A DNA stretch of 47,353 nt, from NCBI GenBank assembly GCA_028279625.1, contig JANQNM010000086.1, forward strand, positions 1 through 47,353, in the 5' to 3' direction. This DNA comes from Candidatus Nitrosopumilus sp. Its GTDB lineage: Archaea; Thermoproteota; Nitrososphaeria; Nitrososphaerales; Nitrosopumilaceae. Under the pieces are notes generated by a model. The model was not told where the DNA came from, did no database searches, and saw nothing but the letters and a program-made list of their open reading frames with translations. Both the position numbers and the translations under genes were made by a program. Shown piece after piece: positions 6,688-37,237 of this stretch; the stretch's first letter is position 1; the number at the start of each line of letters is the position of its first letter.

Positions 6688-6802
6688 GCCGGGGTAGCTC
6701 AGCCTGGTTAGAGTGCCAGTTCACTTGGTAATCTCTAAAGGTTCTCCAACTAAGGCAATACTCATAATCTGGAGGTCGCGAGTTCGAAACTCGCCCCCGG
6801 CA
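6688..6802 (+). tRNA. elongator tRNA-Met (anticodon CAU), intron-containing
   Basis: Acceptor GCCGGGG/CCCCGGC, T-arm GCGAGTTCGAAACTCGC; removing 6720-6759 gives anticodon stem CCAGA/TCTGG with loop CTCATAA. Confidence 0.93.
6720..6759 (+). other. tRNA-Met intron at non-canonical position 30/31 (BHB-type)
   Basis: Bulge-helix-bulge: 5' GAG-UGCC-AG|U ... GGCA-AU|A-CUC; central UGCC/GGCA 4-bp helix, two 3-nt bulges, outer GAG/CUC helix. Confidence 0.85.
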
Positions 6803-6810
6803 TTACAGAA
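6785..6810 (+). repeat. attL-like tRNA 3' end repeat
   Basis: cgaaactcgcccccggcattacagaa; 14-bp exact core cccccggcattaca shared with 37221-37234. Confidence 0.65.
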
Positions 6811-6844
6811 TCACTTTAAAGCCCACCCCTGCGTTAACTATGGC

Positions 6845-8179
6845 GTGAGTTTAAAGACAATAAAAAAACGCCAAATACACGATTACGATTCTTTAATGAG
6901 ATCCGTAAACAGACAGATTCGAATTGAATTGTCAGAGAACAATTCTGAACTAATTACAAAGTATGACAGAGAAATGGTTCGCCAATCTATTGCAGTTGCA
7001 ACAAGACAAAAACATTTGCGAACATTGCTTGGATTAACTAGACTTTTGAAAAAAGATTGGAAGGATGCAACAAAAGACGACATGGATGAACTAGTTTACG
7101 AAATAATGCAAAGACATTCAGATGAATCAGGAAAAGAAACAAACTATTCGTATGATCACAAAAAAGTTTTGAAAATTTTCATGAGATGGTTAAAGCTTGG
7201 TTCTAGAGAATTTTCTGAAGTAGGGGATCCTCCTGAAACTTCACAAATCAGAATGAAACGAGTCAAAGACAAGATAATTCGCGAAGATTTGTTAACTGAA
7301 GATGACATCTCAAGACTTTTGCATGCATGTGGCGAGAATGCAAGAGACAGAGCATTAATTGATTGTCACTATGAAGGAGGGACAAGACCTGGAGAAATTC
7401 TTTCTATTTTGATAAAACATGTAAAGTTTGATCAATATGGTGCAAACTTGCATGTTGATGGAAAAACTGGACCTAGAACCGTTCGATTGGTAAAGTCAAC
7501 ACCTAGTCTTGCAAACTGGATGGCAACTCATCCATTCAAGGACAACCCTGATGCTCCAGTGTGGATTAATCTAACAAAGAGACATTATGGCGAACAATTG
7601 ACATATCCTGCAGCTCGTGCAATGTTTGAAAGAAGAGCAAAAATTGCACATTTGGAGAAAAGAGTCAACCTAAACATGTTCAGACATAGCGAGGCCACAA
7701 ACTCTGCAAAATTCATGACAGAGGCACAGTTGAGAAAAAGACACGGATGGTCACCTGAATCCAAGATGCCGGCACGATATGTCCACATGGTAAACGCTGA
7801 TGTTGATGATGCAATCTTCAAACAACTTGGAATCAAAAAAGAAGAGGAAGTTATCAAGATGCCACAAAAATGCCACATTTGTGACATGCCAAATGCTCCA
7901 GATGCCAAAATGTGTTCAAAATGTGGAAAACCACTGGATCTTGGTACAAGTTTAGAGATTGATGAGAAAAACCAAGAACAAATCACAAAACAGAACGAAA
8001 AGATAGAAAGTTTGGAAAAAACTCTCAAATCAATGCAAAACAGTTTAGAGAAGCGAGATAAGGAATGGGAGACAGCAATTGTGAAAATACTTGAAGAACA
8101 AGCAAAAAAGTTCTCAGATCCTAACTATATCAAGAAATTAGAAGAAAAAGAAAATTCTGATGAAATTTTGTATAATTAA
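6845..8179 (+). CDS. Tyrosine recombinase/integrase with C-terminal zinc ribbon and coiled coil
   Basis: GTRPGEIL (Arg box), NMFRHSEAT, RHGWSPESKMPARYVHM (His...Tyr); zinc ribbon CHICDMPNAPDAKMCSKC. The track ORF 6713 starts inside the tRNA; GTG 6845 or ATG 6896 is more plausible. Confidence 0.87.
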   Translation: MSLKTIKKRQIHDYDSLMRSVNRQIRIELSENNSELITKYDREMVRQSIAVATRQKHLRTLLGLTRLLKKDWKDATKDDMDELVYEIMQRHSDESGKETNYSYDHKKVLKIFMRWLKLGSREFSEVGDPPETSQIRMKRVKDKIIREDLLTEDDISRLLHACGENARDRALIDCHYEGGTRPGEILSILIKHVKFDQYGANLHVDGKTGPRTVRLVKSTPSLANWMATHPFKDNPDAPVWINLTKRHYGEQLTYPAARAMFERRAKIAHLEKRVNLNMFRHSEATNSAKFMTEAQLRKRHGWSPESKMPARYVHMVNADVDDAIFKQLGIKKEEEVIKMPQKCHICDMPNAPDAKMCSKCGKPLDLGTSLEIDEKNQEQITKQNEKIESLEKTLKSMQNSLEKRDKEWETAIVKILEEQAKKFSDPNYIKKLEEKENSDEILYN

Positions 8180-8213
8180 GAAAAAACAAAACATAATGAG
8201 AAAAATCTTCTAG

Positions 8214-8223
8214 ACGCGCGCGT
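8214..8223. repeat. 10-bp palindrome ACGCGCGCGT
   Basis: Perfect self-complementary alternating CG tract in an AT-rich intergenic region. Confidence 0.6.
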
Positions 8224-8316
8224 TATCAATTACATTAAACTAATTTAATCTATGAAACGACAATTACAAAATACAAATTACAAATTTTTAGACACAACCA
8301 CCCATAATATAGGGAA

Positions 8317-8420
8317 TTTGTAACTTTGATTGATTTTGTAACTTTTCTAGGCGTGGAAAATTACAAAACAGGTTACAGAATCAATCATTTTTGTAACTTT
8401 TTGATTGATTTTGTAACTTT
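8317..8420. repeat. Iteron-like repeats: TTTGTAACTTT(TT)GATTGATTTTGTAACTTT twice direct, once inverted between
   Basis: Direct copies at 8317-8345 and 8390-8420; inverted attacaaaacaggttacagaatcaatca at 8360-8386. Confidence 0.75.
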
Positions 8421-8638
8421 GATTGAAAGTTTCCAGGCACGGATTTTTAGGAGGATTAGAAATGGCATAATTTCAAGACAAAATGAATAATTTCAAAAAA
8501 TTTACAATTATTCAAAAATTATTATTTTTTTCAAAAAAATTTCCTTTTTTGAGTTTTGGTCCGTTAAAGTAGCTATAAAATTGGTTCAAGACTCTAAAGT
8601 TCAGTTCTGTAGAGATTGAAACCATTTATGGAATCAAA

Positions 8639-9088
8639 TTAGGATTCACGTTTTCTCTTAGCCTTGAACCATTCATCATCATTTCTAAGAAAATCCCAAT
8701 CCGCTCTTGAATTTGTCAAATCATCTTGATCATGAAGGAGTAAATCAACAAAATTATCTTGATTTCCAAATCTTATTGTTCTATTTTGTTCTAAAGATTC
8801 AAGGAAGCCTTCATCAATTCTAACAAGACACCAAATTCTTTCTGCGTCAATAAATGCTGTGACTTCGATTAGAGTTTCAAAGTATGGACCTTCATCAGTA
8901 TCAATTCTATCAAAGAAGTTTCTCATTCTAAATGCTCTGTAACCCTTTATGATTTCGTGCAGGTCTCGATCATCAACTTGAATCAATGGAATATTTTGGT
9001 GCATGAACCAAGTATCAGGTTCCATAAAACCATTCTGAATTTGGTCCAAATCTTTTTGATGTTCAGCAAATTCTTCGTTACGTCTCAT
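8639..9088 (-). CDS. hypothetical protein
   Basis: 149-aa ORF, acidic, complete start/stop; no recognised domain. Confidence 0.6.
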   Translation of the reverse strand: MRRNEEFAEHQKDLDQIQNGFMEPDTWFMHQNIPLIQVDDRDLHEIIKGYRAFRMRNFFDRIDTDEGPYFETLIEVTAFIDAERIWCLVRIDEGFLESLEQNRTIRFGNQDNFVDLLLHDQDDLTNSRADWDFLRNDDEWFKAKRKRES

Positions 9089-9141
9089 ATCTAATCTATG
9101 AATTTTTTGTTTTTATGTGATCCTAAATTAGCATTTGAAGA

Positions 9142-9786
9142 TTATTTTGTTACATGCCCCTTAATTCTACCAACAACTCTATCAACTTCTTTGTCTGAAA
9201 ATATCTCATATCTGCTTTGAATGAATGGGTTAATGTTATCCATGTTTTTGACATTGACAAATTTGTACTCAGAATCATACTGAAGATTTCCACGGTTTGC
9301 TAACACAACTTTGGTCACTTGGGGGTTTCTTGGACTAAACCAAGACTTTAATGCAATCCACAGAACCATTCCAGCTCTATCTACTTGTTCATGTGGAGTA
9401 ATTCCTTTTTTCTTGTTCTTTTCAACATATGAATTTCCCCAGTTTTTTGTTTCAATTAATACAATTCCTCTTTTTGATACAACAACAAAATCCATTTGAG
9501 CTGATTTGAGATTTTTCCTTCCACGATATGTTATGTAACGACCTAAATCCATTCGAACACCACATAAAACATGAAAATTATCATCCAACTCTGATAGTTT
9601 ATCGATAACTTCTAACTCGCCTTTTGCACCACGAATCCATTTTCCTTTTTTTCTTTCTTCAATTTTGTTTATCTGTCGTTTTTTCTTCCAACGTCGAAAT
9701 TTGTTTCCTATACCTTTTTCATCAATAGAGTCAAATTCTTGCTTCATCTCTTTGTGAATTTTTCTAATATCATCTACTGTTTCCAC
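9142..9786 (-). CDS. NERD (nuclease-related) domain protein
   Basis: GAKGELEVIDKL ... SAQMDFVVVSKRGIVLIETKNW is a typical NERD core. Confidence 0.78.
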   Translation of the reverse strand: METVDDIRKIHKEMKQEFDSIDEKGIGNKFRRWKKKRQINKIEERKKGKWIRGAKGELEVIDKLSELDDNFHVLCGVRMDLGRYITYRGRKNLKSAQMDFVVVSKRGIVLIETKNWGNSYVEKNKKKGITPHEQVDRAGMVLWIALKSWFSPRNPQVTKVVLANRGNLQYDSEYKFVNVKNMDNINPFIQSRYEIFSDKEVDRVVGRIKGHVTK

Positions 9787-9983
9787 TTCATCTGGAAGTC
9801 CTTCTAAAAGGCGTTTTTCAGCATCTGCACGACCATAAATTATTGCCAGATCATTGTTATGATATTCTAAGAATTAAAAATTTGGAATTATCAACGTTTG
9901 AGCCTTAATTAGAAAAAAGGAATGCAAATAGACAATAAAATCACATATTGAAGAGTAAAACGAATATCAAATGAGAGAGAATA

Positions 9984-10922
9984 ATGCAAGAAAATAAAGG
10001 AATATCAGATATTGCATCATCTGAAGGAGATTTATCTGATTTCACAAAAATTTGCAGAGCAATATGCAATAATCGATTAATTTCAAAAGAGAAACTATTC
10101 AAAATTATTATGAATGAAATTAAAAGTAAATCAGAAGGTTCTATTGAGAGGAAACTCAGTATTATGCAGAAATTAAATTTAATAGATATTGTAAACCAAA
10201 AATATGCATTAAATTCAAATGGAAAAATTTTGATTGAGATAAGTAATGAGCCATTTGTATTTTCAGAAAAAATTGAAAAAGCATTTTATTTTATCATTTT
10301 GTTTATGTCTGATGCTAGAATTCAGCTTGCCACATTACTTCAATCAATAAATGAACAAAATGGAGATGACAAAAAGAATAACATTCTAAGATATTTTAAA
10401 ACAGATATTGCGCAGATGATTTGGAATAAACAAATCGTACAAAAAAATATTCATGATTTAGAAAAATCAAACAAAATTCCAAGCATGTTTAACAATAAAT
10501 TTTCTTGTATGAACAAATGGTTACAAATCATAGATTTGGTGGAATCAAAACAGAATGGATTACATGTGAATTTACCGAAAAAAATGATTAATTCTCTAAC
10601 AGATTCAAAGAATGTAGAGAAAATTTTTGAAGAAACCGCAACAAAATATTATCCTGAAGCAGTTAAATTCAATTTAAAAAAACATTATCAAAAACTAAGT
10701 GAATTATTTATTGAAGGTCATGAGAAATTTTGTACATCAACAGTGGGAATTAGTGATGCTGATGCAGTTGGAAAGTATGTATGTTTACAACTTTTGAAAT
10801 CAGGAATTATTCTTGAAGAAAATCACTTTTTCAAGTTAACAGGGGAACTAAAACAAGACAATATTATTCGTTCAGTAATGATCGGTAGAGATGGAAAACC
10901 CAAAAATTTTAGCGTAAATTAG
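9984..10922 (+). CDS. hypothetical protein, possible winged-helix N-terminus
   Basis: 312-aa ORF; overlaps the end of the convergent ATPase gene by 4 bp. Confidence 0.6.
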   Translation: MQENKGISDIASSEGDLSDFTKICRAICNNRLISKEKLFKIIMNEIKSKSEGSIERKLSIMQKLNLIDIVNQKYALNSNGKILIEISNEPFVFSEKIEKAFYFIILFMSDARIQLATLLQSINEQNGDDKKNNILRYFKTDIAQMIWNKQIVQKNIHDLEKSNKIPSMFNNKFSCMNKWLQIIDLVESKQNGLHVNLPKKMINSLTDSKNVEKIFEETATKYYPEAVKFNLKKHYQKLSELFIEGHEKFCTSTVGISDADAVGKYVCLQLLKSGIILEENHFFKLTGELKQDNIIRSVMIGRDGKPKNFSVN

Positions 10923-12019
10923 AGATAGCGTAGGGAGGATTTGTTGTCTTCAACAAATTTTGAATCTATAACATCTAGTTCTTGCTCTGCTGCTTCTCGA
11001 ACTAGTCTACCACAATTGGGTAGTAAAAATCCAGGATAATGATATTCAGGTCTCATTAATCTAAGTAATACTTCTAAGGAATCATCAGAAAATGGGGATA
11101 ATTTATTTTCAGGCGCGTTTGATGGATTAAAATACAAATTATGATGAACACGTAAGAATTCAGAAATATGTTCTGATGATAAACTATCTAGTCTGATTAA
11201 ATAATCAAATCGTCTAGAAAGTTGTTCAGAAAATCCCAATTCATACCATTCATCTTCTTTTTCTGCAGTAAAGGATGCAATTAATGCAAAGTTTTCTGAA
11301 AAATCATCCAATAATTCTCTTAAACTGTCACCAATAGCACTACTAAGTTTTGCAGGAGTATTTTCTAATTCATCAATAACTAATACAACAGGGCCAAAAT
11401 TTTTGCTGAGATGTAAAAGAAGTTCTTTTAATATTGTCAATCGTTTGTAGTCCCCATCAAGAGCATAGGTAATATCTAACGTGTTAAGTTCTGATGATGA
11501 AAGTCGTTCTCCAAGCAACCATTTCTTTGCTAGTTCAGGGTGATGCGCATTGGTATTAATCATATGTAGTATTCTTGCTAGTTCATTATTTGGAATTAAT
11601 TGGTTCCAAGTAGTTGGGGTTTCATTTGAAAATTCTTTTTGAACAAAAGCGCCAATATTTTTTAGATTATTTTTTATAAAATTAGACATTGCTTCTCTAT
11701 ACATAACTGAAAAAGAAGCTTCAACTGCCGGAATTAATGTATAAATGAAAACAATGTTTTTGTTTGCATCTTTAGATTTTTGATTTAGTTTTTTATTGAT
11801 AATTTTTGTTAACCACGTTTTACCACTACCTGTTTGTCCAAATATTCGTAGACCTATCCTACCACCATTTAAAATATCTTCAAAAAATCTATCAAGATCT
11901 CTTTGCACATTTTTTAAATCAGGTCTATCCCATTCAAGAAATTTTTCATCAATCAAATAGGGATTTGTAGGTTCATATGGATTTTGTACAAAATTATATT
12001 TCTCGAAATATTTGGCCAT
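10919..12019 (-). CDS. AAA/STAND-like P-loop ATPase
   Basis: Walker A FGQTGSGKTWLTK, Walker B VVLVIDELEN. Confidence 0.82.
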   Translation of the reverse strand: MAKYFEKYNFVQNPYEPTNPYLIDEKFLEWDRPDLKNVQRDLDRFFEDILNGGRIGLRIFGQTGSGKTWLTKIINKKLNQKSKDANKNIVFIYTLIPAVEASFSVMYREAMSNFIKNNLKNIGAFVQKEFSNETPTTWNQLIPNNELARILHMINTNAHHPELAKKWLLGERLSSSELNTLDITYALDGDYKRLTILKELLLHLSKNFGPVVLVIDELENTPAKLSSAIGDSLRELLDDFSENFALIASFTAEKEDEWYELGFSEQLSRRFDYLIRLDSLSSEHISEFLRVHHNLYFNPSNAPENKLSPFSDDSLEVLLRLMRPEYHYPGFLLPNCGRLVREAAEQELDVIDSKFVEDNKSSLRYL

Positions 12020-12054: not shown

Positions 12055-12516
12055 TTAAGTACCACCTAAAATCGTATTAATGTATGTATGAGCATCATCG
12101 ATCAAAGTTTCTTGTTCGTTTTCAACATAAACACCTGCTTCCTTGTTTTGATGTATTGCAGTATCAGTGATGTTTAAGCTTGACACCAATAGGCTCTTCG
12201 AGTTTCCTTCTAATAACACCATTTTTGCATGAACACCTTTTCTTGACAAAATAGAAATCCCTAAATTATCTTCTAGATCTTCTACAAATTCTTGTTCAGT
12301 TTTATCTCTTGCAAGAAATTTCCGGCTTATGATTATCGTAATTTTTATCTGACTACGTACTAGCTGTTCTAATTTATCACGAAACGACACACCATTAATT
12401 GATGCGTTATGAATATGTTGACTAACAATTTTGACCTTTTTCATTCCTCTTCGTGCTGTCAATAGTTGATTTAGCCGAGATTCCAATGAATCACCAAAAA
12501 CAAATTCAATTACCAA
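12055..12516 (-). CDS. Phospholipase D-family protein (single HKD; DpdK-like candidate)
   Basis: VHAKMVLLEGNSKSLLVSSLNITDTAIHQNKEAGVYV, an HxK(x)n PLD motif. Confidence 0.78.
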   Translation of the reverse strand: MVIEFVFGDSLESRLNQLLTARRGMKKVKIVSQHIHNASINGVSFRDKLEQLVRSQIKITIIISRKFLARDKTEQEFVEDLEDNLGISILSRKGVHAKMVLLEGNSKSLLVSSLNITDTAIHQNKEAGVYVENEQETLIDDAHTYINTILGGT

Positions 12517-12532: not shown

Positions 12533-13579
12533 CTATGAATGTGTTATTTTATTACTCTTTTTAGTTTTTTCAATTGTGGAAAATAATGAAGCAAAATTTG
12601 TTTTTTTCATTATTTTTGAAACATAATCGTCATACCTATTTTCTTTCATTAGTTTTCTAGCTTTTTTAACTTCTTGTTGATGAACCCATGCGTTGTGAAC
12701 TGCTCTTGCTGTGAAATCTTTTTTTAATCTTGAAAGACCATAGTTTCTACACATTGGACATCTACATTTTTCTAGTTTTTCTTTTTCTTCTTTAGAGAGT
12801 TGAGGATAGGGTTTTTTTCTAACAGAGTTTGTTATCCATCTGTCTCCAATGCCTGGCATTTGAATTGCTCCAAAAGCAGCTTTTGTTCGCCATGCAGAAC
12901 TATCAAGAGAATTAGCACCAGCATAATACATCAAATGCATTGTAAGTGTTCCTCCTGTTCCAAAAACATGTAGTTTAGCGCGTGGTATTTGTTTTCTAAT
13001 TTCCATAATTACTTTCATCACATTTAGAATTCCCCCTACTCCTTTGACGTTATATAATGCAGGAACTAAGCTACCAATTCCATAAATAGAAAATTTTCCC
13101 ATTTTTTTTAATCTATTAACATACCATTTTATTTCGGGATCAGTATATCCATGAACAACTGGGATAAGAATAGGATTTTTTGTGGTTCTCTTTTTGATCA
13201 TTATTTTTGTATTTTGTAAAGTTTTGAGTTTCCGTTTCTGATTTTCAGAATCTGTATTAGTTGGAAATAACGGATGATCTAAAACTACACCATAATTTGG
13301 ATTAGTTTCTTCATAAAATGATATGATCTCTTCGGCAGAAACATCCATGATATTTTTTTTCATAAACATAAACCCACCAGAATCCATCATGACTGGACCT
13401 TGGAATCCTAAATAATCATGAATTTTTTGTTCCTTTACTTTACGAAATGCGGATGGGTGTTGCATAAAATCATACGCATTCATTAAAACTCCATCAACTT
13501 TGAAGAATTTCCAAGGTGCACTGGCATCTTGACCAACTTCTTGGCTAAACCAAAGCATAGGATATTGAATTTTAGACAT
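12533..13579 (-). CDS. dpdA: TGT-superfamily transglycosylase, DpdA-like (7-deazaguanine insertion)
   Basis: MMDSGGFMF (DSGGF), candidate nucleophile region SLDSSAWRTKAAFG, zinc site CRCPMC..H; 348 aa with no room for archaeal TGT PUA domains. Confidence 0.75.
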   Translation of the reverse strand: MSKIQYPMLWFSQEVGQDASAPWKFFKVDGVLMNAYDFMQHPSAFRKVKEQKIHDYLGFQGPVMMDSGGFMFMKKNIMDVSAEEIISFYEETNPNYGVVLDHPLFPTNTDSENQKRKLKTLQNTKIMIKKRTTKNPILIPVVHGYTDPEIKWYVNRLKKMGKFSIYGIGSLVPALYNVKGVGGILNVMKVIMEIRKQIPRAKLHVFGTGGTLTMHLMYYAGANSLDSSAWRTKAAFGAIQMPGIGDRWITNSVRKKPYPQLSKEEKEKLEKCRCPMCRNYGLSRLKKDFTARAVHNAWVHQQEVKKARKLMKENRYDDYVSKIMKKTNFASLFSTIEKTKKSNKITHS

Positions 13580-14310
13580 TAGATATTTTCTAATCTAGTT
13601 ATGAGATTTTTTAACATATAGCTATGAGCTACGCCATACATATCCCATGCAAATGAACCGCGTTTGTTTACAAGCGATCTAACCTGCTTTTTTTCTGGCA
13701 AGATTTCTAAATCTAAAGCAAATTTTTCAGAAGCCATTTCAAGCATCCTTCTATGAGTATGATCAATTTTTTGTTCAAGATTTGAAGAATAGGTTCTAAC
13801 AAAACCAATCATATGTCGATATACCTTTTTTTGTTTCATTTTCTTCAAAAATTTTCCAATATTGTCAGAAAGAAGATCTAAACTTTTGTCTAGATACTCT
13901 TCATCAAATTCTTGACCGTATTTTTTACACCACCATTCAAACAAGCCAGGACAGTCATACCATTGAAATTTTTCATAATATTCTTCTGGCACTAATCCAA
14001 AAGGTTCAGAAATTGTCATAACTTGAATTTTTTTCCTATTTCCATTTAACATGTCTAAGTAATTGTACAGTTGTTTGTATGATCTTGATTCATTGTATGG
14101 TTTTACAGTTGAACATGGAAAAATCAAAAGTGTATCTTTTTTTTCTGGTTTGTATTTTGTCATCATAAATTTCTGCCAATTTTCAATATCAGAATTATTT
14201 TTTAGACCAGTGTAGACTTGTTTTGGGTTGTAAAAACAAAGAGATTTCTTGATTTTTACGCCTTTTCCGATTTTAGACGAAACTTGATCAAATAGTTGTT
14301 GTTTTGACAC
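13579..14310 (-). CDS. Archaeosine synthase (ArcS)-like DUF5591-type protein
   Basis: LLIFPCSTVKPYNESRSYKQLY resembling ArcS PCS..KPYS.S.SH; MTISEPFGLVPEEYYEKFQWYDCPGLFEWW resembling the ArcS core; abuts the transglycosylase gene. Confidence 0.7.
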   Translation of the reverse strand: MSKQQLFDQVSSKIGKGVKIKKSLCFYNPKQVYTGLKNNSDIENWQKFMMTKYKPEKKDTLLIFPCSTVKPYNESRSYKQLYNYLDMLNGNRKKIQVMTISEPFGLVPEEYYEKFQWYDCPGLFEWWCKKYGQEFDEEYLDKSLDLLSDNIGKFLKKMKQKKVYRHMIGFVRTYSSNLEQKIDHTHRRMLEMASEKFALDLEILPEKKQVRSLVNKRGSFAWDMYGVAHSYMLKNLITRLENI

Positions 14311-14353: not shown

Positions 14354-14995
14354 TTAGTAATCAAATGTTGTAGAACCAAATGCTTCTTGTCTAACTGTAC
14401 ATGCAGGGCATTTTTCACAAGGAAATTCTGATGATTCATAACAACTTCTTGTATATGATAAATCAAATCCAAGTTTTTTACAATAATCAATTAATCCAGG
14501 TTTTGTATTACATGGAAAGTCTCCTTCAAAAAAAGGAGAAAAAATTCTAACTTTGTAAGGTATAGCAATTTCTGTTTCTTGTTCCTTTATCTTAAAAAAT
14601 TTAGGTTGGCCATCACCCATATCATAATCAAAAGTTGCAAGAACAATAGTAGAGATATTTTTTCCTGCAGCAAATCGGATTGCATTATTTATCATATCAG
14701 AATTTCGCAAATAGGTTCGTGATTCAAAATTATGTTTTTTAAATTCTGGAGCTGGGATATCTGTTGTTACTATGAAGGGTTCATGGAATCTAGATTTGTA
14801 ATCCTTAAAGAAAATTTTTGTGTAATGTTCAACAGATTTTGATTCAAATTCAGTATTTCTTTGTCCGTGTTTAAGAAATAAAGGGAAAACTTCACCCTCA
14901 TAATTATTTAAAATAATTTTGATTAATCCTGTACTATCTAATCCACCGGACCATAAAACAACAATTTTCTCATTTAGTAATGAAAGATCCGACAT
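14354..14995 (-). CDS. queC: QueC-like 7-cyano-7-deazaguanine (preQ0) synthase
   Basis: VVLWSGGLDSTG PP-loop; C-terminal SCYESSEFPCEKCPACTVRQEAF zinc site typical of QueC. Confidence 0.85.
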   Translation of the reverse strand: MSDLSLLNEKIVVLWSGGLDSTGLIKIILNNYEGEVFPLFLKHGQRNTEFESKSVEHYTKIFFKDYKSRFHEPFIVTTDIPAPEFKKHNFESRTYLRNSDMINNAIRFAAGKNISTIVLATFDYDMGDGQPKFFKIKEQETEIAIPYKVRIFSPFFEGDFPCNTKPGLIDYCKKLGFDLSYTRSCYESSEFPCEKCPACTVRQEAFGSTTFDY

Positions 14996-18474: not shown

Positions 18475-18603
18475 TTACACCTCTAGTTGCAAGCCGCGAA
18501 CGAGTTTATTCTTGCATTCAAGTTCTAGTGGTTGCTGACAATCTTTACAATAGTCTTTTACGTCCAACTCAATTCCACATTTTCTGCATGAATCTAATCT
18601 CAT
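18475..18603 (-). CDS. small zinc-ribbon protein (42 aa)
   Basis: MRLDSCRKCGIELDVKDYCKDCQQPLELECKNKLVRGLQLEV. Confidence 0.55.
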   Translation of the reverse strand: MRLDSCRKCGIELDVKDYCKDCQQPLELECKNKLVRGLQLEV

Positions 18604-18719
18604 TGAAAAATGCCTCTAATGCAGCGAGAACATGTGGAAAAAAAGCCCACTGTTTCATACTGGTCTAGGGTAAGAAGTTCTCGCATACAGAATTATTGGA
18701 TTGAGTCACAATATACCTT

Positions 18720-18739: not shown

Positions 18740-18792
18740 GGGGTACATTCGAATTTACCATATCCTATCTGTTTCTACATCTAACTACTTTC

Positions 18793-25141: not shown

Positions 25142-25155
25142 ATAATATTTAGTTC

Positions 25156-25173: not shown

Positions 25174-25207
25174 TATTGGTTCGTATCCTCTGAGATTCAC
25201 ATTTTGT

Positions 25208-27604: not shown

Positions 27605-27649
27605 AAATTTGTGTTTGAAAAACTATACTTAAAGATGTTCAATGATTCT

Positions 27650-27669
27650 CATCTAATTTAGATTAGATG
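27650..27669. repeat. Inverted repeat CATCTAAT-TTAG-ATTAGATG
   Basis: 8-bp perfect stem ~45 bp upstream of the 27604(-) start. Confidence 0.8.
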
Positions 27670-27671
27670 TA

Positions 27672-30134
27672 TTATGGAATTGAAAATTTGATAATAGAAT
27701 CTTCTATTGTGACATATTCATTAGTTTCATAGTCTAGATATGTCAAAGAATAGACATAGTCACCGTATCCTTCAGCCCAATATGTTACATCTACGTTGCC
27801 ATTTTCGTCTGCATGATAACTATTTCGAGTCCAAACATTATGATGATCTCCCATAATTTCGTCCCAATTGAAATCAACTACAACTTGCACCCAACCATCA
27901 AAATTTGCAAATTCCCTATCATCAGAGAGTTTCCAATGTAAAGTAACATCATGAGAGGTAGAATATGCTTGATTCACTGTAACTTGATGACTTTTTTCAA
28001 TTACACTAAAGGATGTGCTATCAGGAATTGATCCAACAATTTCATCATTGAGTGCTAGTGTGAAAAATTTAGAGGAATCCTCAGAAATGCTTGTCACTTG
28101 TGCAGTGAATTTGTCTCCAGGTTTGTAATGGTAGGCATATGCAGCAGCACTAATTTTACCATCAACAAATGAATCCCAATGGTATTCTTTTTTTCCATCA
28201 GGGAGAGTAATTGTCACTAATGCTGAATAGTTTGAAGAATAGTCCCCTTCTAAAACTTCAAGGGAGTGAGATACAGTTTCAACATCCCAATCAAATGTAA
28301 TCCACGAGAGGTCCTTCATGCCAGGAACTTCTTCATAGTATGACGATTTTGGATTTGTTGGTTTTAATTCGGGATTTGGAACCACGATTGAGAGTCCATT
28401 TGTTGTTGCAACATCAATGATTTCTGAAATATTCCATACCGTTTCATCGTATTCTATTTGTTTCAACATGAAAGTGTATGAATCCCCTATTATTGGATAA
28501 TTTACATCATTAATTGCAATGCCATTATTATCAGTCGTTATTATTTTTTCAAAGGGTGTTTCATTATTCTTTTGTACAGTTATTGTGATTTTTGCTCCAG
28601 AGAATCCCTGCCTAGTTTCAGCATCATATACTTCCCATTTGGTTTGAATTTTGTCGTTGGGTTTTGAGTAATCTCCAGATAAAATGAAAGTAGGTTGTGT
28701 TACACCTGTAGGTCTATCATCTTCTGAAAGAAAATCTTTGAATACATAATTTTCAGAATTTTCTATTGAAGGTTGTACTTCAGGTGGTTTTTCATCAGGT
28801 GGTTGTTCATCCACAATTCCTGAACAAGAAGGAATGTAAATTTCAATAGGTTCAGGATCATCCGAATAATAGTAACGAGAATCTAAAGATTTAGAAAATT
28901 TTCCAACATTTGTGTTGTCATAGAAAATGTATGTTTGACCATCAATGTCTTTCAAAGTGTAAGGAGGGTTCCAAATTTTTCCTTTTTCATCCATTATCGC
29001 TTCATAAAAAAAACTAAGTGATTTTATTTCAAATGTCCATAAACCAGATTTTGTAATTTTTTCTATTCCTGTCCTAAAAGAATAATCCCCTTCTTTGGAG
29101 AATGTACTTCCAGAATATTTTTCACCATTAGGAGAAATAACATAGTAAAACAAAAAGATGGCCTCATCTTTTATTGGTTGGTTATTCTCATCAGCTAGCG
29201 ACCAAAAAAAATCAACCTTTACCTCATCGTTTAACTCAAGGCATTTTTTGTTTGCCATTGCATTTTTTTGTACAACAAAGACTTCACATTCATATCCAGG
29301 TAATGTACATGATTCTAGTTCTTTGAAATCAGAAGATTGTAAGTGTCCCTTAACAAAATCATTTGATTCAGTTTTTTCTTCAAATGAAATAATTTCAGTG
29401 TTCATCAGAAATTCAATACCCATAACAAAATCTCGTTCTGAAATCTGTTCATTAACATACCATTTGGCATTATTTCGAATCCAGTCTGGAATGTCAATAT
29501 CATCATCAACTTGAATTTGAGTTCCAGTAGGATCCATCTCTACAGGAGTATCAACAACAATAAGATTCTCTTTGACTAGAAATCCTAAACCTGTCGCAAA
29601 TTCTTTGTCACTGATAATGTCATCAGACCACCATTCAATCACTTGCTTGAGGTGAGCTGGCAAGAGACGTTGAGTTGGTTCAAAAACAGGATATTTTTTT
29701 TCTGAATTAATTTTCTCAAAATCCTCCAACTTATTTTCTAAGTCATTCCATTTCTTTTCAAACTCTGCCTCTTTTTCCAACAAATCTGACTCTGATTTTT
29801 CTAACTTGGCCTTGTCATCATGAAGATCTTTTAGTTGTTCTTCTACATCCTCAATCTTGTCAGGAGAAACATTACTGTGTTTTAGATTGTCTAATACTTT
29901 GTTTAGTTCTGTGATTCTATCTAGAATTTCCTGATGTTTCTTCTCATATGACTGCCTTTCTTTCTCAATTCTTTCTCCTTTTTTCTCTAGTTCCTTTTTT
30001 TGCTCTAGGAGCATTTGGTGTTTTTTTGACACTCCAGGATCATGCTCATTATAGTCAGTCCATTGACCATAAGACATTGTAAAACTCTGAGAAAGCAAAA
30101 TTATTCCAAAAAATATCACAAGAAGTTTTTTCAC
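27672..30134 (-). CDS. large secreted protein, paralogous N-terminus to 25208-27604, coiled coil
   Basis: Shared QWTDYNEHDPG leader; WIRNNAKWYVNEQISERDFVMGIEFLMNTEII repeats; long coiled coil; GTG start. Confidence 0.75.
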   Translation of the reverse strand: MKKLLVIFFGIILLSQSFTMSYGQWTDYNEHDPGVSKKHQMLLEQKKELEKKGERIEKERQSYEKKHQEILDRITELNKVLDNLKHSNVSPDKIEDVEEQLKDLHDDKAKLEKSESDLLEKEAEFEKKWNDLENKLEDFEKINSEKKYPVFEPTQRLLPAHLKQVIEWWSDDIISDKEFATGLGFLVKENLIVVDTPVEMDPTGTQIQVDDDIDIPDWIRNNAKWYVNEQISERDFVMGIEFLMNTEIISFEEKTESNDFVKGHLQSSDFKELESCTLPGYECEVFVVQKNAMANKKCLELNDEVKVDFFWSLADENNQPIKDEAIFLFYYVISPNGEKYSGSTFSKEGDYSFRTGIEKITKSGLWTFEIKSLSFFYEAIMDEKGKIWNPPYTLKDIDGQTYIFYDNTNVGKFSKSLDSRYYYSDDPEPIEIYIPSCSGIVDEQPPDEKPPEVQPSIENSENYVFKDFLSEDDRPTGVTQPTFILSGDYSKPNDKIQTKWEVYDAETRQGFSGAKITITVQKNNETPFEKIITTDNNGIAINDVNYPIIGDSYTFMLKQIEYDETVWNISEIIDVATTNGLSIVVPNPELKPTNPKSSYYEEVPGMKDLSWITFDWDVETVSHSLEVLEGDYSSNYSALVTITLPDGKKEYHWDSFVDGKISAAAYAYHYKPGDKFTAQVTSISEDSSKFFTLALNDEIVGSIPDSTSFSVIEKSHQVTVNQAYSTSHDVTLHWKLSDDREFANFDGWVQVVVDFNWDEIMGDHHNVWTRNSYHADENGNVDVTYWAEGYGDYVYSLTYLDYETNEYVTIEDSIIKFSIP

Positions 30135-30180
30135 AAATTTGTGATTGAGGAACTTTACTTAAAGCTGATCTATAATTATC

Positions 30181-30198
30181 ATCTAATTTTGATTAGAT
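30181..30198. repeat. Inverted repeat ATCTAAT-TTTG-ATTAGAT
   Basis: 7-bp perfect stem ~45 bp upstream of the 30134(-) start. Confidence 0.8.
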
Positions 30199-30205
30199 AA
30201 CTAAT

Positions 30206-31384
30206 CTAAAATGGAGTTCCTGTACCAGTACTCAAATCTACAATTATTTCGTTAAATCGTGGGTCACTACTCAAATCAGAACGTACTGTAACAGTTACAT
30301 CACCTGAAACTCCAAGAGGCACATTACCTGAAATCGTTGTTCCATCTGCACTTACAGAAATATTGTCAGCTGTGATTACATCAAAAAATACACTGTCTCC
30401 TGATTGGATTCGTCCACATGAATCTGTTATAGTAAATACATCTCCATGATTTAGTTCAGTAGGATCAATTGTTGGATCAGATTCGCATATTGGTGGTTCT
30501 GGACACGAAATAGCATTTCCTGAAACATTGTTGCTTGAATCATATCCAACACAATCTCCAGTCGTGCCTGAAATCTTTAGATTTCCATCAATATTGTTTC
30601 CAGTAATAGCAACATCTTGATTTTTCTTCAAGTCAACGTTTCCATTAATTTGGCTATCAGTAATTATTACAGAGTTACTCTTTTTTACACTAACATTTCC
30701 ATTGACAGAAGAATTCTCAAGGATTAGATTTCCACCTTTTTTGACATCAATATTACCATTGACATCACCGCCATTTTTCACAACAAGTGTTCCACCTTTT
30801 ACTTTGATGTTACCATTGATGAAAGCGCCATCAACTATTACAGTCTCATCAAATTTGATTGTAAGATTGTCATTGTAGTCATCTGTGATAACTATCGTAC
30901 TAGGATCAAATTGTAGAATTGTTTCAATTGGAGCAAAGGAAATTACTTGTTGACCGTTAGTTAGATGTTGTAATCCATAAACTACATTCCAATCAGAAGG
31001 ATTTCCAGATGTATCAAATCCTTCAACCACAGCATCTATTGAGAAAGATTCATTTGGAATGTCAAAGAAAACGGAATTTATTGTAATTGTATTAATGTAT
31101 GATGCAATTACAGGAGGATTTTCATTATTTCCATCAGATACTTCAACAGCCATGATATCTTGTGAGGCAGTTACAGGATTTTGAATACCAAGAATTACTG
31201 CCCAATTATCAGTTAGTGGTTCGAATCCCTCAAAAGTTACATCAACTGTTAGTTTGCCATTTTCTATGATATATTGTGAATCAGTCATGGTTGCTCCAGG
31301 TGGGATAAATTGTGCAAAAGCAGGAGTTGCAAATGTTCCTAAAATCAAAATACTTGCTAAAATTGGAACTGCTAGTTTTGACAC
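30206..31384 (-). CDS. secreted beta-solenoid repeat protein
   Basis: Repeats INGNIKVKGGTLVVKNGGDVNGNIDVKKGGNLILENSSVNGNVSVKKSNSVIITDSQINGNVDLKKNQDV; signal peptide; GTG start. Confidence 0.75.
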   Translation of the reverse strand: MSKLAVPILASILILGTFATPAFAQFIPPGATMTDSQYIIENGKLTVDVTFEGFEPLTDNWAVILGIQNPVTASQDIMAVEVSDGNNENPPVIASYINTITINSVFFDIPNESFSIDAVVEGFDTSGNPSDWNVVYGLQHLTNGQQVISFAPIETILQFDPSTIVITDDYNDNLTIKFDETVIVDGAFINGNIKVKGGTLVVKNGGDVNGNIDVKKGGNLILENSSVNGNVSVKKSNSVIITDSQINGNVDLKKNQDVAITGNNIDGNLKISGTTGDCVGYDSSNNVSGNAISCPEPPICESDPTIDPTELNHGDVFTITDSCGRIQSGDSVFFDVITADNISVSADGTTISGNVPLGVSGDVTVTVRSDLSSDPRFNEIIVDLSTGTGTPF

Positions 31385-31445
31385 AATAAAAAATGAAAAT
31401 ATGATCGTCTTAAAGATATCCTTGTAATATTACAGATGTTACATA

Positions 31446-31461
31446 TCTAATGTAGATTAGA
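31446..31461. repeat. Inverted repeat TCTAAT-GTAG-ATTAGA
   Basis: 6-bp perfect stem upstream of the 31384(-) start. Confidence 0.7.
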
Positions 31462-31500
31462 AAAAGAAACATCCAAAGCACTGAAAAAAAATTCTAAAAC

Positions 31501-32064
31501 ATGAGCGAAGATCTTACCAAACTTCCATTTTATCTACCTAAACCAGAAGACGATAGAAGAGCAAATCATCTTTTGGGACGGCAAATGCCAAAGATAGTAC
31601 TCCCTTCAACAAAAACGAGTTTTTTAGATTTTTCAAAAATTGCAAAAAAATATGTGATTTTGTATTTTTTTCCGATGATGGGAATGCCAGGAAAGGAATT
31701 GCCATCAGGATGGAATGAAATTCCAGGTGCAAGAGGATGTACGCCTCAAAATATAACATTTAGTGAGAATAATGATTCTTTAAAAAAATTTAATGCAGTT
31801 TCAATTGGAGTGTCTTCTCAGTCAATATATGACTTGGAACAACTATCATCTATTAGGAAACTATCACAGGAGATAGTTTCTGATAACAAATTAGAATTTC
31901 AAAAAAATCTCAACATTCCAATCTTTGAAATTGAAGATAAAATTATGTACAAACGACTAACATTGATTGTCAAAGATTCAAAAATTATCAAAGTGTTTTA
32001 TCCGGTTTTTCCACCTGACAAACATATTTTTGAAATCTTAGAGTGGTTAAAGAAAAATGATTGA
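31501..32064 (+). CDS. redoxin/peroxiredoxin-like protein
   Basis: YVILYFFPMMGMPG...PGARGCTPQNITFSENNDSLKKFNAVSIGVSS. Confidence 0.8.
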   Translation: MSEDLTKLPFYLPKPEDDRRANHLLGRQMPKIVLPSTKTSFLDFSKIAKKYVILYFFPMMGMPGKELPSGWNEIPGARGCTPQNITFSENNDSLKKFNAVSIGVSSQSIYDLEQLSSIRKLSQEIVSDNKLEFQKNLNIPIFEIEDKIMYKRLTLIVKDSKIIKVFYPVFPPDKHIFEILEWLKKND

Positions 32065-32083
32065 TTTGCACGCCAAATATTGG

Positions 32084-33046
32084 TTATCGAGTATTAGTCA
32101 CACATGAATTACAGATATGCTCAATGTGACGATGATCTGTTCCACAACATCCACCTAAAACATTCAAATGATTCATTGCTGTTCTAAGTTCTCTATACTG
32201 TTCTGCTAACATTTCAGGATCACCATCATCTAGTTCTGTAGATTCATCAAGTTCGGCATGACTTTTTTCGGAAGCATTAGCTCTTACGCCCTTTATTCTG
32301 TTTATCCAAGAAGAGCTTCCATCAAGAGTTGTCACAAAATGATTGGGATGAGCACAATTTATCATAAAATATTCTACAGCATTGTTTGTTACTTTGTCTG
32401 TATATGCAATTGCATCTTTTAGGGATTGTCCAGTAACTAATCTTCCATCAGTCTCAACAGTAAAAGCAATTACTACTGGCATGTCAACATTTTTTGCAGC
32501 ACGAATAATTCCTATAGCTTCTTCGACATAATTAATCGTCAATCCAGTAATCATATCAGCATTAGTTTTGCTAAATGTTTGAATTTGATTTTGGTGATAT
32601 TTTTCAGATTCAATTTCATTCATTAAAAATTTGGGCTTATAACCATCACTTCGTGGACCAACACATCCACTAATTACTATCTTTGAATTGTTATTTTCAT
32701 TCAAATCACGCATGTCACTCAACATAGAAATTGATTTTTTGTTTAAATCTGAAAGTTCTTGTTCATTATAGCCCAATTTTTGTGCCCAATCTATACTTGC
32801 TCTCCAAGTAGGACTATCCAAAATCAAACCAATGTTATTTCTTGATGCAAGGTCTACGTAACTTTGATAGTACTTTTGGATTGTTTCATAACCAGTGTTA
32901 TCTTTTAGTAAATCAAATGCGGCAAAATATGGTAGTTCAATGCCATTGTGAAAAATCAGAGTCGTTTCCAAACCACCATCAGTAATGAAAACATCAGTAG
33001 ACATTTGGGGTAGATTATTACGATATTTTGTCATATAGCAAATCAT
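32084..33046 (-). CDS. homocysteine S-methyltransferase family protein
   Basis: TDGGLETTLIF, ISGCVGPRSDGY, MINCAHPNHF, LGGCCGTDHRHI zinc-Cys motifs. Confidence 0.9.
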   Translation of the reverse strand: MICYMTKYRNNLPQMSTDVFITDGGLETTLIFHNGIELPYFAAFDLLKDNTGYETIQKYYQSYVDLASRNNIGLILDSPTWRASIDWAQKLGYNEQELSDLNKKSISMLSDMRDLNENNNSKIVISGCVGPRSDGYKPKFLMNEIESEKYHQNQIQTFSKTNADMITGLTINYVEEAIGIIRAAKNVDMPVVIAFTVETDGRLVTGQSLKDAIAYTDKVTNNAVEYFMINCAHPNHFVTTLDGSSSWINRIKGVRANASEKSHAELDESTELDDGDPEMLAEQYRELRTAMNHLNVLGGCCGTDHRHIEHICNSCVTNTR

Positions 33047-33091
33047 TAGATTCGAATTTATTTATATTTCAATTCTTACAAATTTGAAATC

Positions 33092-33283
33092 ATGAATAAG
33101 AAAATTTTGATTATGATAATTATTGCAGGAGTAGGTCTTCCGATTCAGATAATTCTGGCATCATTGTATCCTGCATCAGAGTATAGTTTCACATTAGGTG
33201 TTGCTCTAGCCATATTAGGAATAATTTTGGCAATTGAGATTGCATTATACAACAAAGTAAGAAAAGAAATTCCAAAAAACTGA
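33092..33283 (+). CDS. small membrane protein
   Basis: 63 aa, two TM segments. Confidence 0.55.
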   Translation: MNKKILIMIIIAGVGLPIQIILASLYPASEYSFTLGVALAILGIILAIEIALYNKVRKEIPKN

Positions 33284-33310
33284 ATCCTTAGAGGCTTGAA
33301 CCAATTTAGG
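33281..33310 (+). repeat. 30-nt dispersed motif, copy 3
   Basis: tgaatccttagaggcttgaaccaatttagg; begins at the TGA stop of 33092-33283. Confidence 0.65.
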
Positions 33311-33311
33311 T

Positions 33312-33515
33312 TCAAAGTAAATGAAAAAATTCTAGAATTCTGACATAAAGATTTTCACACTGATAATGATCATTAACTACCCAGCAATGCATAAGCCATT
33401 GCCATTCATCAATCTTGATCCAGTATCCAACTCTGTAAATATTTAGAAGATGATTAATTCCAAGCCAGCCTAGAATTACTGTAATTACAAATAAAATCAG
33501 ATTTCTAATTTTCAT
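33312..33515 (-). CDS. small membrane protein
   Basis: 67 aa with N-terminal TM. Confidence 0.5.
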   Translation of the reverse strand: MKIRNLILFVITVILGWLGINHLLNIYRVGYWIKIDEWQWLMHCWVVNDHYQCENLYVRILEFFHLL

Positions 33516-33522
33516 TTTTTCA

Positions 33523-35226
33523 TCATCTATTTTCAGAAATGTAGATGATGTAGTTCATCCATTCGTAGAGTTCTTCTGTATCTGGATTTGCAGCAGAAAG
33601 TGCAAAGGAATTTACGCCTTCATACGAACTAGGGGGCTCATCAATTATCCAATCATCCTGAGGATCTATCCAAATTGAAAAGGAATTTTTTCCATTGTCA
33701 CTTATTCCATCAATTTTGTATGGAATAGTATCTTGGTTTACAAAACGAAATGTTGTATTTGGGTTATCTGGATAGTAAACAACAAAGTTCTTGCGATGCT
33801 CAATTGTTTCAGGCAAAATTATTACTTCAAAGGTATCAAAGTGATCATCGCATTCTACAAAGACCCACAACATGGATTTGCCTTCAGTTGGTTTTTCAAA
33901 TGTAAATTCTACTCCATTAGAGTCTTCCTCAGCAGAATAAACTAGATCAATATTTGTCACAACAATGTCTGTTGGGTTTTTGTATGCATACCATCCCCAC
34001 TGAATCAACTCCTGTGATGCAGGGCAGTATTCATTGACTACATTATTTGAGCCTGAAACAGTAGCAGAGGTAATTGAATCAAAGCCTTGTGCATATCCAC
34101 GATGAATTAACTCTCTCATAGCATATCCTGATGCGCAAAATGCAGTTCCATCAGATGTTTTGTAACTGCGATATAGATCATGATTGCATTTGACTTTTTC
34201 TGGTTCTATTCCATTTTGTTGTTGAGAAAAAGGAGATGGACGTATTATGTTACAATTCTCATCAACTTCTGCACCACGATAGTCCAAACAAAGATTTTCA
34301 CCAGGAATTTCAATTACGGGTCCCCAGATTCCAGTTGAATTTGATTGAGGTGTTTGTTCTTTAACAACACAAATTCCATCTTGTAGTGTAGTTCCAAGCC
34401 CACAGTTCTCATAGATTGGTTTGTCTTGTTCAGGTTCTGGAATCAGAGAATCATGAACTCTAGACTCTGCAACAATATCCAAATCGTCATGAATGTGATA
34501 TGGTTCTGGAAGTGTATAATCAGTATACTGTGCATATATTGCATCTTCAGGCATTGTGAAAAGTCTGTTTCCGCTTGAAGAACTGTTTTGTGAAAAAGAG
34601 ACGGTTGTTTCAAATATTCCTGACTCTTCTTCTGTCTCTATTGCATCAACTAGGATTCCTGCCTTGTCTGAATCAGAGAAAACATGGATTGGTAGTTTGT
34701 CCAATGTTTCAGGATTGAGGTTCATGTCAGGATCAATTACTTGCAGTTTTGCAGTCTCATCTAACTGAGGTTTTGGTAAATCAAAGGAAATTTCTCCCAC
34801 ATTCCATGCAATCTTTGTAGTTGTCTTGATTTTGGTTCCATCATTAAGATTAACTAATATCTCCAATTTCTCATCACGAGCTGATTCCAAAAAGCCATTG
34901 TTGGGTCCACTTCCTGTTGTTCTAGGATTAGTGTCAGGTTTACCATCCCCATCAACATCATGTAAAAATCCAGTAAGAATTACCTCACCAGTGTATAGTC
35001 CATTTCCTGCTTTTGATAACTTGTATGACTTTAGTTCATTATTCCCAACTGAGATCTGTATTGTGTCTTGTTTGTGATCAAAACCATGAACCATTAATCG
35101 TATCTTTACCTTGTCAGTCCAAGAATAGTTGCCCTTGTCTAAAGACAAGGAACCATATGCATCAGAAATAGTTACAGGAATCAATACCATAACAAATAGA
35201 ATAATTGTAATGATTCCTAATCTCAT
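33523..35226 (-). CDS. secreted beta-rich cell-surface protein
   Basis: Signal peptide MRLGIITIILFVMVLIPVTISDAYG; Ig-like LDKGNYSWTDKVKIRL repeats. Confidence 0.7.
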   Translation of the reverse strand: MRLGIITIILFVMVLIPVTISDAYGSLSLDKGNYSWTDKVKIRLMVHGFDHKQDTIQISVGNNELKSYKLSKAGNGLYTGEVILTGFLHDVDGDGKPDTNPRTTGSGPNNGFLESARDEKLEILVNLNDGTKIKTTTKIAWNVGEISFDLPKPQLDETAKLQVIDPDMNLNPETLDKLPIHVFSDSDKAGILVDAIETEEESGIFETTVSFSQNSSSSGNRLFTMPEDAIYAQYTDYTLPEPYHIHDDLDIVAESRVHDSLIPEPEQDKPIYENCGLGTTLQDGICVVKEQTPQSNSTGIWGPVIEIPGENLCLDYRGAEVDENCNIIRPSPFSQQQNGIEPEKVKCNHDLYRSYKTSDGTAFCASGYAMRELIHRGYAQGFDSITSATVSGSNNVVNEYCPASQELIQWGWYAYKNPTDIVVTNIDLVYSAEEDSNGVEFTFEKPTEGKSMLWVFVECDDHFDTFEVIILPETIEHRKNFVVYYPDNPNTTFRFVNQDTIPYKIDGISDNGKNSFSIWIDPQDDWIIDEPPSSYEGVNSFALSAANPDTEELYEWMNYIIYISENR

Positions 35227-35701: not shown

Positions 35702-35932
35702 ATGGCATTCAAAGTAAAATACCGATTTAAAGAGGACAAGAAATCATACAGTTGTGTTTTGACATATCAACAGTACAAAAACTTCAAGGAGTTGCCAATA
35801 GTTGTAGAATGTGAAGTAGTAAAAAAGAATCAAAAAAACTTTGAAGAATACAAAAAAGACATGGAAAGAGCACTAGAGTTGGCAGTTCATAACGACAAGA
35901 GTCACATTAGAAAACTATCAGAAAACGTATAG
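35702..35932 (+). CDS. small hypothetical protein
   Basis: 76-aa ORF. Confidence 0.5.
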   Translation: MAFKVKYRFKEDKKSYSCVLTYQQYKNFKELPIVVECEVVKKNQKNFEEYKKDMERALELAVHNDKSHIRKLSENV

Positions 35933-35933
35933 A

Positions 35934-36086
35934 CTAGTTGCCATAGGTCAGCATTACTTTTTGTTTCAAAATGCTTGCAAGTTCTTCATAGAGTTGTTCT
36001 AGATCTTCCAAAGTAGGATCTTTGTCAATGATTTGTTCAACTTTTTTTTCAAATAATCGAAGTTGGTCATACTCTAAGAGATTCAT
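35934..36086 (-). CDS. small helical hypothetical protein (50 aa)
   Basis: MNLLEYDQLRLFEKKVEQIIDKDPTLEDLEQLYEELASILKQKVMLTYGN. Confidence 0.45.
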   Translation of the reverse strand: MNLLEYDQLRLFEKKVEQIIDKDPTLEDLEQLYEELASILKQKVMLTYGN

Positions 36087-36278
36087 TACTTAATGAAACA
36101 CTGCCAAGTACTTTATCGTCTTTGTGTAATTTTATGTTACATGTTTTTTTGAAAACATAAATAATGATATGCTAGTATATTATTAACATAATACAATTTT
36201 TATAATACTCTAATATCATCATACTATGTCATGTGATTTTCAACCATGTCATGAGATTAGTGTGAGATCAAAGGCGAA

Positions 36279-36638
36279 GTGAAGGATGGAAAAGCCCTTT
36301 CAGTATACATTCTCAAAGACGATGGCAAAGCAGGACCAAAAATTCATTTCAAAGACGTCATTGCTCAAGCAAAAAAATTAGTTGATGATGATATTTGGGA
36401 TAGAGAAGGGACATTTCCAGCACCAGATTCAAAGGAATGTCCTGAAGATTGTGAGTGTATTCATACAAAAGTTGAATGTAGTGAATGGAAAAAGTTCACC
36501 ATCACCAAACGTTTCAAGTTTGGGGCTCAAAAGTACATTGCAGTAGCAAGTCTTGAGCGTCAAATTTGTCAAAATTATGGTGTATGTGCTTGTGCTGATG
36601 GTGATGATGAAGAGATTCACGAAGTTCAGCCAGAATAA
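36279..36638 (+). CDS. hypothetical cysteine-containing protein
   Basis: 119 aa, CPEDCECIHTKVEC and CQNYGVCAC clusters; GTG start. Confidence 0.55.
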   Translation: MKDGKALSVYILKDDGKAGPKIHFKDVIAQAKKLVDDDIWDREGTFPAPDSKECPEDCECIHTKVECSEWKKFTITKRFKFGAQKYIAVASLERQICQNYGVCACADGDDEEIHEVQPE

Positions 36639-36766
36639 CCACAACCCAAATTTCATTTTTTTAGAAAATCAATCTAAAGACAGAACAGTTCCTTGTAAAA
36701 TTACGTCAGACTAGTTCATCATAGTATAGAAAATGTTAAAGAACAAAAAAACAATCTAAGGGTATT

Positions 36767-37093
36767 ATGGTATACAAAAAGCCAGTAGACACAACATTGC
36801 AGATGATTTTTGCTGTAATTCCTGTATTAGATATTGTTGCAAGTTATAGAGTTCAGAAATTAAGATTAGGGTTGCTATTTTTTTGGGCTGGAGGAGCAAT
36901 AGTTCAGTTCATTCAATTTTTTGTATTTTTTGGAGAAGAGCATTATTTGTTCTTTGGTGAGTTTGAAGCACGATTACCTGAAAGCGTAATTTTGTTTACA
37001 ATTCTATTTGTTTTTCTCAAAGCAGTGGTAATGGGAATATGGTCAGATAAATGGAATAAACAGTTTGATGTTAAAATCAGAATTAAAGAATAA
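36767..37093 (+). CDS. membrane protein
   Basis: 108 aa, three hydrophobic segments. Confidence 0.6.
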   Translation: MVYKKPVDTTLQMIFAVIPVLDIVASYRVQKLRLGLLFFWAGGAIVQFIQFFVFFGEEHYLFFGEFEARLPESVILFTILFVFLKAVVMGIWSDKWNKQFDVKIRIKE

Positions 37094-37211
37094 TTCAAAA
37101 AGAATCAAGCCCATACGGAATTGGTTCACAGACCAATAGTCGTTTTATGAGTATTGGTTTGAAAGAATGGTTTTTTGTGCGTAAATAAGGCGCGGCATCA
37201 AACTGATCTGA

Positions 37212-37237
37212 CAAAACTCACCCCCGGCATTACAAAT
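37212..37237 (+). repeat. attR-like remnant of tRNA-Met 3' end
   Basis: caaaactcacccccggcattacaaat versus tRNA cgaaactcgcccccggcattacagaa. Confidence 0.65.

Follow-up and report, generated by a model that had tools for sequence, protein, structure and literature searches.

Cryptic integrated elements (CIEs) of thaumarchaeal genomes, as catalogued by Krupovic et al. 2019 (PMC6563490), range in size from 2.6 to 98 kb with a median of 17 kb, and their direct repeats have a median length of 17 bp. The locus described here lies in Candidatus Nitrosopumilus sp., on contig JANQNM010000086.1, the whole of which (47,353 bp) is the window that was analysed; a 30,427-bp segment of it, beginning at a tRNA-Met gene, is almost certainly a site-specifically integrated mobile element of the CIE kind. 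Like CIEs, it has a tyrosine integrase at one end and short direct repeats (14 bp in this case), one of them in the target gene. Its target is the 3' end of a tRNA gene, and the CIE set includes intron-containing tRNA genes. No virion, casposase or conjugation genes were found in scans, the cargo is of metabolic and restriction types, the size is within the known range, and three relatives (G024, G025 and G047) have an empty site, apart from 1.7 kb outside the right attachment site (attR). It differs in exceeding the median size, in having a tRNA-Met hotspot that could be followed across 52 genomes, and in bearing an operon of 7-deazaguanine type, whereas a text search of PMC6563490 for QueC found none. 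The island itself belongs to an already catalogued kind; what lifts it above the routine is the hotspot evidence and the operon.

An exact 14-bp core, CCCCCGGCATTACA, is present in the same orientation at both ends of the element (Table 1), and these are its only two copies in the genome (1.47 Mb; two forward, none reverse, none for the reversed-pattern control), against a chance expectation of approximately 9e-6 occurrences per strand in the window. The wider repeats, 6785-6810 and 37212-37237, are identical at 22 of 26 positions. All of this stands as the first-pass annotation of this DNA had described it, but its account of 6785-6810 as tRNA-Met 3' sequence is only partly right: the tRNA gene is real (48.2 bits with the Rfam tRNA model RF00005), but the tRNA proper stops at 6802, such that the core consists of 9 nt of tRNA and 5 nt beyond. 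This tRNA-Met, which we take to be of the elongator type, has the anticodon CAT and an anticodon stem interrupted by a noncanonical intron of about 40 nt, most likely the reason that ARAGORN, run on the window, did not call a tRNA at 6688-6802. Beside the right-hand core lies an attR arm, GGCATCAAACTGATCTGACAAAACTC, which occurs, with three or fewer mismatches, in 24 of the 96 genus genomes compared (own genome included), with zero matches for a reversed-pattern control, and which runs straight into CCCCCGGCA in ten of them, the own genome counted.

The integrase gene starts 94 bp from the tRNA, inside the element and beside the attachment site, as had been annotated. Alignment of 25 rows showed that residues R164, K190, R263-H264, W285 and Y296 are conserved, as is the zinc ribbon among relatives. 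Judged by its sequence, the recombinase is full-length with its catalytic residues kept. The element shows no visible decay, and the earlier suggestion of a decayed island is not supported. Homologues of the recombinase are present in 39 of the 96 genomes; that of G041, at the same tRNA, is 86% identical. Another contig of the own genome carries a further intact integrase of this family (G000:C24:40615-41826; 45% identical), which probably marks another island.

These features suggest a mechanism in which the integrase would recombine a circular form of the element (attP) with attB, the 3' end of the tRNA-Met gene on the chromosome, with strand exchange within the shared 14-bp block, so that the tRNA would be kept intact on the integrase side and a partial copy would remain at the far end. 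Because the nearest difference between the repeats (G6793 versus A37220, the first mismatch to the left of the core) sits immediately beside the core, crossover is placed inside it, provided that attL is of chromosomal origin in its left half. We infer a circular intermediate and present-day excision; the predicted attP, reading from the right end of the element into its left end, is ...GGCATCAAACTGATCTGACAAAACTCACCCCCGGCATTACAGAATCACTTTAAAGCCC..., a sequence that makes excision directly testable. Cargo genes probably account for at least part of the element's persistence, and among them the five-gene operon described below is the best candidate for a benefit to the host (defence).

Both flanks are conserved across the genus. 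A query of the topoisomerase and tRNA genes had DNA matches in 92 of the 96 genomes, and a right-flank query (38400-42900) in 95. At the three empty sites, the tRNA is separated from the right flank by only 6, 71 and 86 bp, and the flank begins at the equivalent of window positions 38,938-38,990. The first-pass annotation had taken both flanks to be core genes and had predicted an empty site joining about 6810 to about 37235; the left flank is indeed conserved and the empty sites exist, but the right flank is conserved only from about 38,938, not directly after 37,237, and the junction is from about 6802 to about 38,938. Neither pattern that it had named as speaking against an island was found: the gene order from 6.8 to 37.2 kb is not conserved in any relative searched, and the island-free genomes G024, G025 and G047 each have a single copy of the repeat, which is the tRNA itself. 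The complete genome of G007 has an integrase 60% identical to that of the window (1213048-1214277) adjoining the same tRNA, and an attR arm and core at 1251606, 38.7 kb further on, with the core flank directly after them, from 1251725. This homologous integrase, matching arm and abutting core DNA confirm the assignment of the two repeats as attL and attR, as had been proposed.

The tRNA-Met site is an integration hotspot, reused in many genomes of the genus. Where the two flanks share a contig (52 genomes, own included), the insert at tRNA-Met, measured as the distance between flank-query matches, varies in length between 6 bp and 77 kb; it exceeds 20 kb in 14 genomes and 4.8 kb in 20. Gaps of about 1.8-2.4 kb are presumably near-empty for the most part, the first genes of the right flank being too diverged to match. 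The site offers a well-bounded example of a hotspot at which one tRNA-Met, integrases of the same family, a conserved attachment arm and interchangeable cargo are found together within one genus.

Several points weigh against an integrated mobile element of this form. The nearest relatives available for comparison have flanks that are only about 80% identical. The genome is a draft of 119 contigs, 90.5% complete with 4.8% contamination; chimeric assembly is unlikely because both chromosomal flanks are on one contig, with gene order as in relatives. The symmetry of inverted arms in the predicted attP is not significant in the window (324 of 2000 shuffles were as good), and such arm repeats were rejected as proof of attP there, although the symmetry is clear in G009. 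Finally, the interior of the island could be composite.

Table 1. Features of the tRNA-Met locus in the 47,353-bp window.
Feature	Position	Strand	Evidence
Topoisomerase IB; conserved left flank, adjoining the tRNA in most relatives	4970-6634	+	Pfam Topoisom_I 3.6e-73
tRNA-Met (CAT) with noncanonical intron; predicted integration target, left intact	6688-6802	+	Rfam, sequence
Predicted attL core CCCCCGGCATTACA	6794-6807	+	repeat search
Tyrosine recombinase, 427 aa, C-terminal zinc ribbon and coiled coil	6896-8179	+	Pfam PF00589 1.1e-13
Protein, 149 aa	8639-9088	-	no family match
NERD nuclease-related protein	9142-9786	-	Pfam PF08378 1.2e-12
Protein, 312 aa, converging on the AAA gene	9984-10922	+	no family match
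AAA ATPase, last gene of the operon	10919-12019	-	AAA_22 1.9e-6
PLD-family nuclease (DrmC/DpdK-like)	12055-12516	-	PLDc_2 5.1e-9; DrmC 5e-11; DpdK 3.3e-4, below cut-off
Short DpdA-like guanine transglycosylase, 348 aa	12533-13579	-	TGT 9.8e-24; PADLOC DpdA 3.2e-17
ArcS-like DUF5591 protein, motif PC-x3-KPY-x2-S-x2-Y	13579-14310	-	PF17884 2.8e-14; ArcS 1.8e-14; alignment
QueC-like preQ0 synthase, second divergent copy	14354-14995	-	PF06508 5e-19
KAP P-loop NTPase (QatA/PDC-S20-like), divergent from the operon	15352-16524	+	PF07693 4e-36; PDC-S20 4.9e-31
Protein, 459 aa, weak C-terminal HEPN-like match	17003-18382	-	PF18735 0.0042, below cut-off
Right-block cargo: membrane and secreted proteins	18971-24432	-	homologues in G001 and G009 tRNA-Met islands
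Right-block cargo: FMN reductase, secreted proteins, redoxin, S-methyltransferase	24497-35226		Pfam
Element-derived attR arm GGCATCAAACTGATCTGACAAAACTC	37194-37219	+	motif upstream of CCCCCGGCA in 10 genus genomes
Predicted attR core CCCCCGGCATTACA	37221-37234	+	repeat search
Accessory segment outside attR: coiled-coil protein (37425-38351), GNAT acetyltransferase (38434-38886)	37240-38937		absent from empty sites
Conserved right flank: cupredoxin, methyltransferase and following genes	38938-42900		conservation in relatives

The accessory DNA between attR and the conserved flank can be accommodated by a refinement that does not contradict the interpretation as an integrated element: it is likely that the whole accessory block from 6,803 to 38,937 is a composite of at least two insertions at the same tRNA, with the repeat at 37,221 ending only the youngest. 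The empty sites connect the tRNA to 38,938 rather than to 37,238, and five genomes (G008, G058, G001, G094 and G079) have an extra 2.7-46 kb that separates the core flank from an attR-like arm motif. The 1.7-kb accessory stretch beyond attR, the genes of which have homologues elsewhere in the genomes of relatives, is probably left from an earlier insertion; however, an eroded copy of the tRNA or attachment site was looked for near 38,938 and not found, and without it a separate 1.7-kb insertion is just as possible.

It is rather unlikely that the segment is a degraded provirus or integrative-conjugative element from which structural or conjugation genes have been lost. Transitions between integrative-conjugative and cryptic elements are known (PMC6563490), and the AAA protein has weak matches of replication type (Orc1/Cdc6 at 7.6e-5, clamp loader at 1.5e-5, helicase loader at 1.8e-4), but this protein is better explained by its homologues near transglycosylase genes. 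As the first-pass annotation had remarked, capsid and conjugation genes are not evident: Pfam scans of the main island genes (small open reading frames were not all scanned) gave no match to capsid, terminase, portal, relaxase or VirB-type families and revealed no conjugation gene, and a PHROGs scan of ten proteins gave no match to those same families. It is highly improbable that the locus is an ordinary chromosomal variable region with repeats due to chance or ancient tRNA debris, for although right-block genes have homologues scattered across the chromosomes of relatives, the repeat would arise by chance with a probability of about 1e-5, and the conserved arm motif, the empty sites and the homologous G007 island, which already contradicts this explanation, all stand against it.

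The cargo of the integrated element includes a five-gene operon on the minus strand that encodes QueC, a DUF5591 protein, a DpdA-like transglycosylase, a PLD nuclease and an AAA ATPase, consecutive genes being spaced by -1 to 43 bp; its DNA had no match in the other 95 genomes of the genus. A host QueC gene lies on contig C69 (4.2e-50) and, on contig C7, a gene for a full-length protein that weakly matches DUF5591, and therefore the island copies are additional. The DpdA-like protein consists of the TGT domain only, without PUA or the C-terminal domains of tRNA enzymes, and its alignment shows that the catalytic residues Asp66 and Asp226 and the zinc ligands are kept. Phylogenetically it falls outside the host ArcTGT clade (99/99) and is grouped with proteins of mobile elements, in a tree with some long branches; an origin by duplication of the host ArcTGT gene was rejected on account of this tree and the missing C-terminal domains. 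Its score against the DpdA family, 64 bits, is below the cut-off of 200, and a single scan of the genome_contigs collection for this protein yielded one distant match only. The AAA protein aligns with homologous ATPases (7.6e-14 to 7.5e-10) that are encoded near short TGT genes, both in G108 and on haloarchaeal plasmids.

By association only, the operon is a candidate 7-deazaguanine DNA modification-restriction module, and it can be compared with several known systems. In phages, DpdA has been shown to introduce 7-deazaguanines into the DNA (Hutinet et al. 2019, PMC6884629). The operon resembles the Dpd (dPreQ0/dADG) systems in combining a TGT-type base-exchange enzyme and QueC with a PLD nuclease (DpdK-like) and an ATPase. 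In contrast to Dpd, the island enzyme is a short archaeal transglycosylase that scores below the DpdA cut-off, and an ArcS-like DUF5591 protein is found where bacteria use DpdC; no match to DpdB or DpdC was found among ten left-block proteins. Viral DpdA pathways are a second likeness: Vibrio phage nt-1 has a combination of DpdA2 and ArcS (PMC6884629), to which the adjacent DpdA-like and DUF5591 genes of Sulfolobus virus STSV1 may be compared. TGT is also linked with HerA systems (PMC12839542). BREX-Related Capture (HerA/FtsK with TGT; PMC12839542) is similar in the coupling of TGT to ATPases and in its anti-invader context, and two relatives, G108 and G523, join DpdA-like and DUF5591 proteins with HerA and NurA, but the operon of the window has no adjacent HerA, PglZ or STAND NTPase, and FtsK was likewise not found. 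A KAP NTPase (QatA-like) near a QueC-like gene is reminiscent of Qat; however, the KAP gene is divergent, QatB and QatD were not found, and the QueC-like protein scores higher as QueC than as QatC, and a Qat system was rejected, nothing having matched beyond KAP and QueC. Unlike ArcTGT, the island enzyme is 348 aa long and lacks the C-terminal domains.

The operon may, with a likelihood somewhat short of even, encode a compact archaeal modification-restriction system in which QueC would lead to preQ0, the DpdA-like enzyme would insert it into DNA, the DUF5591 protein would turn this into a base resembling archaeosine, and unmarked DNA would be cut by the PLD and AAA proteins. If so, 7-deazaguanine defence centred on the DpdA-DUF5591 pair would form an archaeal branch of its own, disseminated by viruses and by elements that target tRNA genes; the gene content of the island is suggestive of a rare archaeal form of DNA marking with 7-deazaguanine. 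Such DUF5591 proteins were found in only 3 of 400 genomes of the phylum. The DUF5591 gene adjoins a DpdA-like gene in G108, G197 and STSV1, and in G523 the two are in one operon, one gene apart. By eye, the neighbours of the pair are NurA, HerA and a large ATPase in G108, and virus-like in G197; the operon of G523 also has HerA, NurA and a large ATPase. An archaeal operon of NurA, HerA, large ATPase, DUF5591 and DpdA-like transglycosylase recurs at two loci (L191, 1420-10306; L225, 906-10948), the second of which has an additional gene of about 255 aa, PCNA-like by eye. Separately, a set of three genes encoding a short TGT, a protein of about 290 aa and a BREX-type ATPase (L213 and L214, both 8758-11842; L192, 2438-5534) occurs both on haloarchaeal plasmids and in a genome that belongs to the class of the window's own genome.

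The cargo as a whole falls into two blocks. The left block (8.6-18.4 kb) is defence-like, comprising the NERD protein, the five-gene operon and the divergent KAP NTPase; the 459-aa HEPN-like protein could, from its sequence, be an RNase effector. The 312-aa protein was considered as a counterpart of the partner protein of about 299 aa in haloarchaeal TGT operons, and rejected (hhalign probability 0.2%). The right block (18.9-37.1 kb) encodes secreted and membrane proteins and redox or one-carbon enzymes. Some of its genes are common to the islands of G001 and G009 at the same tRNA (best identity 64-68%), and single-gene matches are dispersed in relatives. A match to NitrOD1 was found among the window proteins and, together with the likeness to published thaumarchaeal elements, suggests an ammonia-oxidising archaeon related to Nitrosopumilus. 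Between the blocks, a 459-bp stretch with a small membrane-protein open reading frame (18508-18966) is 96% identical to 21177-21635 of contig C101 of the own genome, where it adjoins an arginyl-tRNA synthetase gene; it has 70-86% matches in many relatives. The stretch was copied recently and may mark a seam at which the cargo blocks were joined by recombination. The right block also has a pair of neighbouring large secreted proteins (25208-30134), one of them with a transglutaminase-elicitor match; the N-terminal motif QWTDYNEHDPG, common to both, suggests a tandem duplication.

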